A stretch of DNA of 64,000 bases from an uncultured Candidatus Peregrinibacteria bacterium (GTDB lineage Bacteria > Patescibacteriota > Gracilibacteria > Peribacterales > Peribacteraceae): positions 1 through 64,000 of the forward strand of contig CAINVY010000005.1 in assembly GCA_903854335.1 (NCBI GenBank), read 5' to 3'. Below are positions 8,923 through 18,410 of the stretch, piece by piece. How positions within the stretch are numbered: the stretch's first letter is position 1; every line of letters starts with the position of its first letter. Position numbers and translations under genes: made by a program. The notes under the pieces are model-generated. The model ran no database searches. It was not told the origin of the DNA and saw only the letters and a program-made list of their open reading frames with translations.

Positions 8923-10977
8923 TCATGGGGTGACGGTAATGGTAATACTCTTGGAATCAGTGTACCCGTTCTTGTTTTTGAGCGTCAGAGTAACCGTGTA
9001 CGTTCCCACCTTGTCGAAGACATGAACGTAGCTCGCGTCCGCACTCTGCTCGATCACGGTCGCGGGGTCATCCACCGAGCGCACATCCCACAAAATGCTC
9101 GTGAGGTCTCCCGTCGAACAGGAGGAATCGAATGCGACCGCCTTCCCTGCCGTCACCGTCGTACGACTTGCGGTGAGACACGCGGCGTTCGTCGGAGGCA
9201 GTACCACGATCGTCCGCTGTGTCGAATACTCCTTCCCCTTCACCGTCACGATCGTCATCGTCACCTTGTACTCCCCTTCCTTGGCGTACGTATGATCCGT
9301 CTTCGATCCGCCCAAATTCACCGTCTGCCCCTGCGGCTCATCACCGAATTCCCACTTGAATCCCGCAATATCCTCTCCCGGCGGAACGAATGCATCCGAC
9401 GCGTCGAACTGCACGCGAAGCGGAGCGGAGCCGCTCTCGGGCTTCATACTGAATGCGGATTCCGTTCCGGGAGCATTGACGATGATCTTCAACGGGAGAC
9501 GCAGAGAATTCCCGTCTGGCCCCTGCGCAACGAGCGTTACCGTGTACGTTCCCGCCTCGCGGTAGACGGCCTGGAATGTGGATCCCGCAATCGTTGCGGT
9601 TTCCTGATTGGGCGCTTCCCAGAAATACTGAACGAGCGGTTGCGACGACACGGGTTTCAGCTGCACCGCCAACGGCGTATCACCCGTCACGGTATTGTTG
9701 CTCACTGTCGTTCCCTCGAAGTGCAGATCGCTCAGCGAAAGCTTGTTGGTCGAACGCACGATGACCGTGAGATCGGCAAGAGAACCGCTGAGAGAACGCG
9801 CCTGGACTTCCACCGCGTAGATGCCGGGCGTCTCGAAAGAGTGTCCTATTCTCTTGAGTTCCGCACCTTCCTCCTGCTTCCCGTCCCCGAATGACCAGAG
9901 CACATCCTTCAATGATTCCTTCGTCTGCAACGTAAAGAGGACGCCAAAGGGTGATGGACCCATGAGATTTTCCGGATCCGTCTGGAGCGTGATCGGGAAC
10001 GGCAACGGAGCGGGATTCACCACTTCAACATCGCGCTTAAACGTCTTCTGCGTATTGTTCGTGAGCTGCATGATCGCGGTCACGTGATAGGTGCCCGTCG
10101 CATAATACGTGTGCATGATCTCCGGCTTCGTTGCCTCTTCCGTTTTTCCGTTTCCATCGAAATCCCACTGAACGCTCTTGAGAAGCTTGGGGTCTGCCAG
10201 GAGTTCTGAAATAGAGAACCGCGCGGGCGTTTCCACGATGGGTTTGATGGGTTTCACGGAAAAGACTTCGCTGCCGATGACAATGCGCAAGGTCACGAGC
10301 CTCGAGGCTCCCGAGTCCAACATGATCCTCACCGCTGCGTTATACACACCGGCGCGATCGTAGACCGCCGTTTCCGTCGGGACGACGGTCCTATCATTCT
10401 CCTTCCCATCGCCATTCGTATCCCAAATGTACTGAATGGGATGCAAACCAAGATTCTTGAGAGTGGCAACCGCCTTCTCGACGCTGAGGGTCAGCGAAAG
10501 TGGAGCGACGAATGTCCGGGGGTCCGACGGCACCGTCTGAATGGAGAATGGCGGCTCTCGAAGAATCATAAAGGGAACAAGCGCGCAGACGGCGATGCCC
10601 GGGACGAGAGTGACGACGAGTCTCATGAGGCTGCGCTGGCGCGTCGCGATGGGAACATCAGCTTTCGCAATGCGCTGCAAGAGCAGGAGTCCCACGATGA
10701 TGAACACCGCCGCGCCCGTCAGAGACGTGAGCAAACCGATGCTTACGAGACTGCGCATTTCTCCCGTGGGACTGGGCAACATCATTATCAGCGCGAAACA
10801 CCAGATCATCAGGATCGTATAGAGAATCGATCCCACGATGATGAGGAACTTCTTCGCGGATCGAACGACCGCATCTTCCTTCTTCTGCGGGGCTGGGACT
10901 GAACCGGTTGTCACACCATCCACCGGCCTGTCGGATGCAACCACGTTCTCTTCGGATGTGTTCGATGGAGGAGGCAT
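8923..10977 (-). CDS. PKD-domain repeat protein with N-terminal transmembrane helices
   Basis: Repeated PKD motifs (W(E/S)FGDG.., HTYAKEGEYKVTMTI, YREAGTYTVTLVA); hydrophobic N-terminal segments. Confidence 0.85.
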   Translation of the reverse strand: MPPPSNTSEENVVASDRPVDGVTTGSVPAPQKKEDAVVRSAKKFLIIVGSILYTILMIWCFALIMMLPSPTGEMRSLVSIGLLTSLTGAAVFIIVGLLLLQRIAKADVPIATRQRSLMRLVVTLVPGIAVCALVPFMILREPPFSIQTVPSDPRTFVAPLSLTLSVEKAVATLKNLGLHPIQYIWDTNGDGKENDRTVVPTETAVYDRAGVYNAAVRIMLDSGASRLVTLRIVIGSEVFSVKPIKPIVETPARFSISELLADPKLLKSVQWDFDGNGKTEEATKPEIMHTYYATGTYHVTAIMQLTNNTQKTFKRDVEVVNPAPLPFPITLQTDPENLMGPSPFGVLFTLQTKESLKDVLWSFGDGKQEEGAELKRIGHSFETPGIYAVEVQARSLSGSLADLTVIVRSTNKLSLSDLHFEGTTVSNNTVTGDTPLAVQLKPVSSQPLVQYFWEAPNQETATIAGSTFQAVYREAGTYTVTLVAQGPDGNSLRLPLKIIVNAPGTESAFSMKPESGSAPLRVQFDASDAFVPPGEDIAGFKWEFGDEPQGQTVNLGGSKTDHTYAKEGEYKVTMTIVTVKGKEYSTQRTIVVLPPTNAACLTASRTTVTAGKAVAFDSSCSTGDLTSILWDVRSVDDPATVIEQSADASYVHVFDKVGTYTVTLTLKNKNGYTDSKSITITVTP

Positions 10978-15620: not shown

Positions 15621-15675
15621 GGTCAATATCCTTCAGAGCGCTCTGCCAAGCCTAAATCCTCATCCGAGGCTCCTT
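15621..15675. repeat. Diverged direct repeat, copy A (overlaps the 3' end of the PEP carboxylase gene)
   Basis: ggtcaatatccttcagagcgctctgccaagcctaaatcctcatccgaggctcctt. Confidence 0.85.
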
Positions 15676-17186
15676 CGTATCACTCCCGCTTCCACGATAT
15701 CCCTCGTGATCGCGGCGGAGTCGGGAGTCGCGAGACGATGAAGGATGGTGGAGGTGATATTGCGATGGATGACGTGGTGGGGTTTGACCGGACCGAGCGT
15801 GATCCCGAGGATTTCCTCGATCCCTGCGATGTCTTCTTTGATCTCTTCGAAGGCCGGATACTGCGCGGCGAGGAGCGAAAGATTCTCCGCATTGAAATAT
15901 TTTCCGGCGTGGACGATGTCCTCCCGCAGCGCCGGGTAGTGAGAGTCGAGGAGTGGCATCAGTTTCGCTTTCGCAGCGGCGCGAAGTCCGCGACCGGTGG
16001 CAATCAATTCCGGAGGGACGCCGAGCGAGTAGAGCGCAGCAGTAAAGACTATGGCGCGCGGGAGCTTCACGGCACCCACTCCCCTGCTGTATCCGAAGAG
16101 CCCGATGTGGAGGAGGCGCTCGCGTCGCGAGGGAACGAACGCGGCAATCTGATTGATGATGGGCGCAATGGACTCAATGGAAGATCCCCACGCGGCAACG
16201 AAGAGCTCCGCGAGATCACGCACCTTGGCGCGCTCGTGATCGGTCATCGGCGTTCCCTTCCTCATCGGCACCTCCCGATGCATGAGCTCGAGCGCCGATC
16301 GCACATCTGCGAGCGGGTAGTCGTAGCGGAAGGCCGACTGGATGGAATACGTGCTGGTACCGGCGTACTGGTTGAGGAACGTTTCGGTGTAGGTGGGATT
16401 CACGCTCCCACGGAACGGCAGCGACCCCGTCCCGAGAATCGGAAAGACGTCGAATCCAAGACACCCACCGACCTCGTGCGCTTTCGCGAGCGCGGCGCGC
16501 ACGGCGAGCACGGCGGGGACGAGGCCCGAGTTCATCGCGGGGTCCGATCGCGCGAGGAAGATACGCTGACCATGAGAACGATCCGCCGACGTATCGCGCA
16601 AAAGCTCCTTCCAATACGGCTCGACGATGTTCTCGATCGAGAAGAGCGAGTCGATGTCCTCCACGAGCGGCGTCACGCGCACAAGCGAGAGGAGATCTCG
16701 TTCCTTACTGACGGACGAGTGGAAAACCGTACGATGGTACTCGGCGACTTCGAGAAAAGCCTGTCTCGCAGCGAGGGGCTGCTTGGCTGTGGTGGTGAGC
16801 GGGAGAAACATCTCCGTGACCGGCGGAGCATCGAGGCCGATTTCCTGCGCAAGATCGGCGAGCGACAAAATATTCATGAACGCCCGTGCGGAACGATGCG
16901 TTCTGTTCTCTTCCCATGCGGGAATGCGGTACGTGAGATGATGATCACTGCCGAGGGGATGCGCGGCAAAGAAATCCTTCGCACGAGAGAAGAGCTTCTC
17001 GCCCACAGCCTCATCCACGTACTTCCCCTCCCAATCCCACATGTACTCATCGATCGGAAGCTCGCGGAAGAGCGTGAGAAGTTCGGTGATCTCGTCTTGC
17101 GTGGAGATGTACGGATCTTTTCCCCACCACGGCGCACTCGCATTGTCGGGATGCTGCGTCGCCATGGTGACCGGCGGCCAAATCAT
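15660..17186 (-). CDS. ppcA: Phosphoenolpyruvate carboxylase, archaeal type
   Basis: MATQHPDNASAPWWGKDPYISTQDEITEL, VSLFPILGTGSLPFRGSVNP-type motif (FDVFPILGTGSLPFRG). Start proposed at MIWPPVTMATQHPDN. Confidence 0.88.
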   Translation of the reverse strand: MIWPPVTMATQHPDNASAPWWGKDPYISTQDEITELLTLFRELPIDEYMWDWEGKYVDEAVGEKLFSRAKDFFAAHPLGSDHHLTYRIPAWEENRTHRSARAFMNILSLADLAQEIGLDAPPVTEMFLPLTTTAKQPLAARQAFLEVAEYHRTVFHSSVSKERDLLSLVRVTPLVEDIDSLFSIENIVEPYWKELLRDTSADRSHGQRIFLARSDPAMNSGLVPAVLAVRAALAKAHEVGGCLGFDVFPILGTGSLPFRGSVNPTYTETFLNQYAGTSTYSIQSAFRYDYPLADVRSALELMHREVPMRKGTPMTDHERAKVRDLAELFVAAWGSSIESIAPIINQIAAFVPSRRERLLHIGLFGYSRGVGAVKLPRAIVFTAALYSLGVPPELIATGRGLRAAAKAKLMPLLDSHYPALREDIVHAGKYFNAENLSLLAAQYPAFEEIKEDIAGIEEILGITLGPVKPHHVIHRNITSTILHRLATPDSAAITRDIVEAGVIRRSLG

Positions 17187-17231: not shown

Positions 17232-17261
17232 TTGTCCTCAACGTAGCGCCAAGGATAGAAT
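17232..17261 (+). promoter_or_regulatory. Predicted sigma70-type promoter TTGTCC-N18-TAGAAT
   Basis: Hexamers at 17232-17237 and 17256-17261; 6 nt before the proposed AUC start at 17268. Confidence 0.5.
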
Positions 17262-17267
17262 CGCCCC

Positions 17268-18410
17268 ATCGCCCTCCCCCCGCTACCCAAGGCACCCCAG
17301 GACCCCATCTTCCTCGTCGCCGAGGAAGCCAGGAAGGCCGGCGATCAAGCGATCAATGCATCGATCGGCATGATTCTCGATGAGAAAGGTACACCGCTCC
17401 TGCTTCCCTCCGTACGCTCTGCGACCGAGCAGTGGGCTTCCGAGGCGCTGTTGAATGGATTCCCCTATCCTCCGCTTCTCGGCCTGCCCGCATTTCGCAG
17501 TTCCGTCAGCCGTCTCATCTTCGGTGAGGAACAGCTCATCGCATCGATCGCCGCTACGGGCGGAACCGGAGCACTCGCGCTCAATGTGAAATTGTTGAAG
17601 TTGATGGGAATACGGCGCGTCGTCCTCCCGGTTCCGTCATGGCCCAATCATCTGCGCATGCTCCGTGCGAACGACATGGAAGTGATCGACGTCCCCTTCC
17701 TCGAGGACGGCGAGCCTTCTATTGCAGCGCTCCTCGACGTTGCGGAGAAAGCAGATCACCCTCTGGGGTTTCTCCTTCAGGAGAACTGCCACAATCCCAC
17801 GGGCAAGAAGTGGCAAGCATCCGATCTGGAACATCTTGCGGATGCCCTCAGGCGAAAGAACCACATCGTTCTCGTCGACTGCGCGTACCAGGGACTGGGC
17901 GAGGGCGTGGAAGAGGACATCTCGATGATTTCGATGTTGCGCGCTGCATCCGTCGGGCTGCTCGTGTCTTGGTCTGCATCGAAGAACCATACGATGTACG
18001 GACTGCGGACGGGGCTCGCAGCCGCGTGTGCGCAGAATGAGGATGAGAAAGAAACGATCGAAGGGCACTACCGGATCCTGACGCGCGAGATGCATTCGGC
18101 TTCTCCCACTCCCGGACAGCACATCGTCTCCCTCGTGCAGGAGAACTTCGCCGAGGACTGGCGCCATGACCTCGCGACTCTCCGACGAGATCTGCATCGA
18201 AGACGTACGCATCTCATCGAAACATTCCCGCAATGGCAAAAATGTCTGGAAGGGGTGGGACTGTACGCGGTGCTTCCGATCGAACCCCACTCCATCCGTG
18301 CGCTCCGCGAAAAACACATCTTTCTGACGGACGACGGGAGGGTGAACCTCGCGGGCATTCCGCTTTGCCGACTCGAAGAATTCACGGAAGCGCTGCACAT
18401 CTTGGCGTAA
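17268..18410 (+). CDS. Class I/II aminotransferase (aspartate/aromatic type); proposed start upstream of the first ATG (17370)
   Basis: LLGLPAFRSSVSRLIFG, ENCHNPTGKKW, DCAYQGLGEG, SWSASKNHTMYGLRTG. The region before the first ATG encodes PKAPQDPIFLVAEEARKAGDQAINASIG, matching the N-terminus of this family. Confidence 0.85.
   Translation: MALPPLPKAPQDPIFLVAEEARKAGDQAINASIGMILDEKGTPLLLPSVRSATEQWASEALLNGFPYPPLLGLPAFRSSVSRLIFGEEQLIASIAATGGTGALALNVKLLKLMGIRRVVLPVPSWPNHLRMLRANDMEVIDVPFLEDGEPSIAALLDVAEKADHPLGFLLQENCHNPTGKKWQASDLEHLADALRRKNHIVLVDCAYQGLGEGVEEDISMISMLRAASVGLLVSWSASKNHTMYGLRTGLAAACAQNEDEKETIEGHYRILTREMHSASPTPGQHIVSLVQENFAEDWRHDLATLRRDLHRRRTHLIETFPQWQKCLEGVGLYAVLPIEPHSIRALREKHIFLTDDGRVNLAGIPLCRLEEFTEALHILA

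Follow-up and report, generated by a model that had tools for sequence, protein, structure and literature searches.

Probable AUC start codons on two apparently leaderless mRNAs, for an aminotransferase and SufB, in a Peribacteraceae bacterium

RESULTS AND DISCUSSION

An aminotransferase gene without an ordinary start codon

Comparison with a sister species indicates that two genes in a 1.17-Mb genome, one for an aminotransferase and one for SufB, probably have leaderless mRNAs that begin at AUC, with this codon read by the ordinary initiator tRNA. The aminotransferase gene lies in the window, the whole 64,000-nucleotide stretch of DNA analyzed here, which is part of contig C5; relatives of the genome are named Candidatus Peribacteraceae or Peregrinibacteria. 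The features of the locus are as follows.

15660 to 17186, minus strand: divergent archaeal-type phosphoenolpyruvate carboxylase (TIGR02751, 441 bits versus a cut-off of 146)
17232 to 17237, plus strand: -35-like hexamer TTGTCC, read from the sequence and identical in the sister species
17256 to 17261, plus strand: -10-like hexamer TAGAAT, TATGAT in the sister, at the genome-wide N6 spacing peak
17268 to 17270, plus strand: ATC, proposed start codon at or adjoining the mRNA 5′ end, kept in the sister; selection on the frame begins here
17268 to 18410, plus strand: aspartate/aromatic-type (class I) aminotransferase coding sequence, 380 amino acids, stop TAA (PF00155 and structure alignments)
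17271 to 17369, plus strand: coding segment ahead of the first NTG (dN/dS about 0.22; ortholog alignments)
17276 to 17281, plus strand: C6 run, at which an ancestor common to the sister probably underwent a net −1 base change (out-of-frame MIVPSPF relic in the sister, at homologous spacing)
17370 to 17372, plus strand: first in-frame NTG, an ATG, internal (V/I/M at this position in orthologs)

The sequence-only reading had placed ATC 17268 in the layout TTGTCC-N18-TAGAAT-N6-ATC, and we re-read the same coordinates, with a spacer of 18 bases between the two hexamers and CGCCCC as the six bases before ATC. The last in-frame stop, TAG 17256-17258, lies inside the -10-like hexamer; the frame opens after it (17259-18410), and no in-frame ATG, GTG, or TTG was found between it and 17370, as had also been claimed. 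A start at 17370 would cut 34 residues from the protein. The match to PF00155 scores 138.9 bits, and the best NCBIfam match is PRK09257 at 225.6 bits, under its cut-off of 377. The alignment with solved AspATs runs from residue 5-7, and the PLP lysine motif is present, with WSASKNHTMYGLRTG aligning with the AspAT SxSKN. The N-terminus ahead of 17370, which the earlier reading had taken to be conserved, aligns with family orthologs as well as with the solved AspATs, and the ortholog-conserved pattern in this segment is xLPxPAPxDPIFxxxxEAxxAGxxxIxxxxG. The protein resembles class I aspartate/aromatic aminotransferases over its full length, from the N-terminus, in alignments to AspAT/TyrB structures, and the sole difference is the unusual start codon.

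Conservation of ATC and of the reading frame in a sister species

The sister species (CAIJNU010000113.1, isolate AlinenLipids_bin-9222) encodes an aminotransferase 84% identical at the protein level, and its gene reads TTGTCC-N18-TATGAT-N6-ATC GCC CTT, free of indels relative to the window. The C6 run is equal in length in the sister, which reads CCCTTCCCCCTC. Whether an ATG, a GTG, or a homopolymer indel stands here had been raised as a check on the ATC; the sister assembly has ATC and no indel. The sister shares the ATC and the -35/-10 layout with no length difference, which makes a homopolymer error highly improbable.

Codons 2 to 34 of the aminotransferase (after ATC, to 17369) differ from those of the sister with a dN of 0.087 and a dS of 0.40, and the relation of dN to dS is reversed in the remaining two frames of 17271-17369. 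Within the first six codons after ATC there are three differences, all of them synonymous, whereas codons -20 to -1 carry 7 nonsynonymous and 2 synonymous differences and are not protein-like. This pattern of substitutions supports translation of the segment between ATC and 17370 in the ATC frame.

A genome-wide leaderless layout and a second case, sufB

A survey of the distance from a TANNNT box to the start codon in 807 crude gene calls gave 101 cases of TANNNT-N6-ATG versus about 15 when the gap was shorter (and 59 and 53 for gaps of 7 and 8), and 31 cases of TANNNT-N6-GTG versus about 5. The ATC of the aminotransferase, which had been said to sit at the leaderless spacing, is indeed at N6, the genome-wide peak for ATG and GTG starts. 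No spacing peak was found among these gene calls for TTG, CTG, ATC, ATT, or ATA. General leaderless use of ATC, ATT, ATA, or CTG was rejected on this lack of enrichment at N6, and ATC would therefore be a rare exception and not a general rule.

We then scanned the whole genome for TANNNT-N6 sites at which a stop is reached in frame before any NTG, the next NTG is 8 or more codons away, and the open reading frame spans 150 codons or more. Coding-like sequence ahead of the next NTG was present at 4 of the 201 sites returned, and two of these four have ATC, namely, the aminotransferase and sufB, the only ATC examples in the genome. In a comparison covering about half of the sister genome, the start codons at conserved -10 sites were ATG in both species at 50 sites, GTG in both at 6, mixed ATG-GTG at 6, and ATC in both at 2, again the aminotransferase and sufB.

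Contig C6 (L070), 10478 to 10492, ATC at 10490: sufB start region, TAGGAT-TTCCCC-ATC GCC CGT

The identity of SufB is firm (TIGR01980, 679 bits), and it belongs to the same family as the SUF Fe-S assembly protein SufB. One copy was found in the genome, so its start must work. No NTG occurs for 27 codons after the -10-N6-ATC. The sister reads TACGAT-CCACCC-ATC GCA CGC. Among the relatives compared, mostly ATG and in some cases GTG or TTG stands in the exact ATC column, 6 to 10 bases past a -10-like box, in contrast to the ATC of this lineage; a few start two or so codons later or are extended, and the congeneric G002 carries ATG. The 26 codons after ATC have a dN/dS of about 0.27 against the sister, reversed in the other frames, whereas codons -20 to -1 have 12 nonsynonymous and no synonymous differences. 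Since the substitution sits in place, sufB is the cleaner of the two cases, and it adds weight to the AUC reading.

The aminotransferase has the -10 box about 6 to 8 bases before the start that characterizes leaderless genes (TAGAAT-N6-ATC), but in both species ATC replaces the 5′ AUG or GUG, a usual though not strictly defining trait of such genes; we therefore call its layout leaderless-like and its start codon atypical. As in other non-NTG (AUH) starts, no in-frame NTG precedes the conserved coding sequence, and orthologs have ATG or GTG in the column, exactly so for sufB and within a few codons for the aminotransferase.

Translation could instead begin at the internal NTGs (ATG 17370 and the GTG/ATG at sufB codon 28), leaving the upstream stretches untranslated. 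These are the first canonical codons in both genes, and an NTG stands at each place in both species. However, the stretches ahead of them are under in-frame purifying selection and hold the conserved N-terminal motifs of both families, orthologs do not begin there, and the residue at 17370 varies among V, I, and M, which makes such starts improbable. Loss of the start codons through assembly or sequencing error deserves mention since the assemblies of the sister and the named relatives come from metagenomes, as that of the window genome probably does too. It would, however, have to recur in two genes and in two species with many nearby differences, ATC being present in 4 of 4 sequences, and we regard it as extremely unlikely.

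History of the aminotransferase start

An alignment-based contig search gave 17 loci. None of the family orthologs inspected begins at the equivalent of 17370, which answers the question of whether orthologs might start there. Besides the sister and one unclear case, L005, each carries an ATG or GTG in frame no more than about 8 codons away from the equivalent of 17268, and most begin a few codons upstream of it. As to whether the codon is ATG in orthologs, the sister has ATC, and the ATG or GTG of the others mostly lies a few codons further upstream. Many relatives start with M-x-P-S-P-F-x-x-L-P-x-A-P-x-D-P or near it. The exception, L005 (G046, reverse strand), has no nearby NTG; TATACC-N6-ATA CCA TCA TTC could be an AUA start there, and the closest ATG in its frame lies some 17 codons further upstream, within the region opposite the divergent carboxylase gene.

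The sister has ATG ATC GTT CCA TCG CCC TTC (MIVPSPF) in another frame, at the homologous distance from L-P-K-A-P, and PSPF occurs in sister DNA at a frequency of about 3 in 100,000 positions. As the sister retains this rare out-of-frame sequence at homologous spacing, the C run probably became one base shorter, on balance, in an ancestor common to both species, and the original start would thereby have been displaced. In the window genome, the old-frame ATG is now AGA and the old Phe codon is TCC, as expected if the old frame is no longer read.

The same relic could be taken as a start still in use for the aminotransferase, in the other frame and followed by a −1 shift on the C run, as its spacing matches that of MTPSPF in relatives and PSPF is rare. 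Against this, the window has AGA for the ATG and TCC for the TTC; the differences in 17271-17285 (CTC/CTT, CCG/CCT, and CTA/CTG) are all silent in the ATC frame, whereas in the other frame each changes the amino acid; the sister's out-of-frame ATG overlaps the -10 box; and sufB has no such pattern. We therefore consider a frameshift of this kind unlikely.

A model for initiation at AUC

The earlier reading of an AUC start on an apparently leaderless aminotransferase mRNA is supported, with leaderless transcription and AUC initiation deduced from sequence. According to the model we favor, the 5′ end of the aminotransferase mRNA would be at or adjoining 17268, and translation would begin from the 5′-terminal AUC, as it would for sufB. 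Initiation would most likely involve a 70S ribosome and the single ordinary initiator tRNA (CAU) carrying fMet, with the C-C mismatch at the third codon position tolerated, like AUU at E. coli infC. We infer the position of the transcription start site and the fMet decoding by the initiator tRNA, as well as low or IF3-sensitive expression from AUC. In sufB, an ancestral AUG or GUG would have been replaced in place by AUC; in the aminotransferase, the one-base loss in the C run would have moved the old start into another frame, leaving its role to the AUC that lies six bases past the -10 box.

Natural bacterial starts of the AUH or other non-NTG type are known for infC genes, with AUU or a different non-NTG codon, and for pcnB of E. 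coli, with AUU. An AUC start has been reported for the Myxococcus IF3 gene, and AUC starts are rare but known elsewhere. The present cases resemble the infC and pcnB starts in that the mismatch is at the third base only, but those genes are transcribed with leaders, and infC regulates its own expression, whereas the two genes here are metabolic and their mRNAs seem to lack leaders. With leaderless genes of the Mycobacterium/Streptomyces/Deinococcus type, they share the -10 box 6 to 8 bases before the start and the lack of a leader; the known efficient starts of that type are AUG or GUG (PMC9031893), in contrast to the AUC here.

Some published findings count against the AUC reading, as do the lack of ATC enrichment at N6 and the failure to find a change in the initiation machinery. 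Leaderless translation mostly needs AUG (PMC9031893, PMC5622118), and pairs mismatched at the third base give very low yields in vitro (PMC10158994). A survey of 61,358 ancestral AUG starts, based on annotated starts, found switches to GUG, UUG, CUG, and AUU and none to AUC (PMC5622118). Under current initiation rules, a 5′-terminal AUC should hardly work, and yet both genes lack ordinary start codons. For leaderless mRNAs of metabolic genes, a 5′-terminal AUC start would, if true, be new. Two conserved AUC starts, one of them on the single-copy sufB, would show that 5′-end initiation accepts a third-base mismatch in nature. They would also give gene finders a concrete cause of misplaced starts in CPR genomes and provide two natural mRNAs for laboratory tests of the effects of the codon, the initiator tRNA, and IF3.

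Initiation machinery

The genome has a single initiator tRNA, with anticodon CAU and C1-A72.

Contig C12, 23121 to 23197: initiator tRNA, anticodon stem AGG/CCU, not GGG/CCC (A29-U41)

No initiator-like tRNA with anticodon GAU or an otherwise changed anticodon was found among the 45 tRNAs of this 96.6% complete genome, and an initiator tRNA with an altered anticodon was rejected as the cause on this basis. Starts from an upstream non-NTG codon, TAG readthrough, or an altered tRNA reading AUC would gain some appeal from sufB, which has an in-frame ATG CCC ATG CGC TAG immediately upstream and whose frame is open in the sister up to an ATG further upstream. The codons upstream of ATC are not conserved as protein, however, the aminotransferase has two in-frame TAGs, and the tRNA set holds no GAU initiator-like member, so that we judge such signals very unlikely.

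Of 74 family genomes, 65 carry the A29-U41 form of the initiator tRNA, and one was found to carry the canonical form; the incomplete assembly of the sister yielded no initiator tRNA. A trait that is nearly family-wide does not explain one confined to two species, and a lineage-specific stem change was rejected as the cause. The pair replaced here by A29-U41, the first GC pair of the initiator tRNA anticodon stem, is highly conserved (PMC7949028), and in E. coli the discrimination between start codons is affected when this stem is altered (PMC11497404); the A29-U41 tRNA may therefore be a permissive background for AUC starts. More tentatively, it is possible that AUC is a working start only on leaderless mRNAs here, perhaps serving a few metabolic genes as a weak start sensitive to IF3, with the shared CC-AUC-GC context and the A29-U41 tRNA helping. 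IF3 is present, intact, and not divergent, and an IF3 change was rejected as the cause, none being obvious. The 16S stretch CATGAAG, which we take to be that of G1338-A1339, looks normal.

Two minor observations concern the same machinery. A tRNA-Ile with anticodon UAU is present at contig C2, 45765-45841, and a third CAU tRNA was not found in the genome, which suggests that reading of AUA does not involve a lysidine-modified tRNA-Ile(CAU). The infC gene (contig C10, 143185-142591, minus strand) has no NTG before codon 47, as is also the case in G001, G003, G023, G024, and G041, and IF3 seems to start at a conserved CUG, the CTG (TTG in G041) in the family-conserved CTG CGA CAA CGT.
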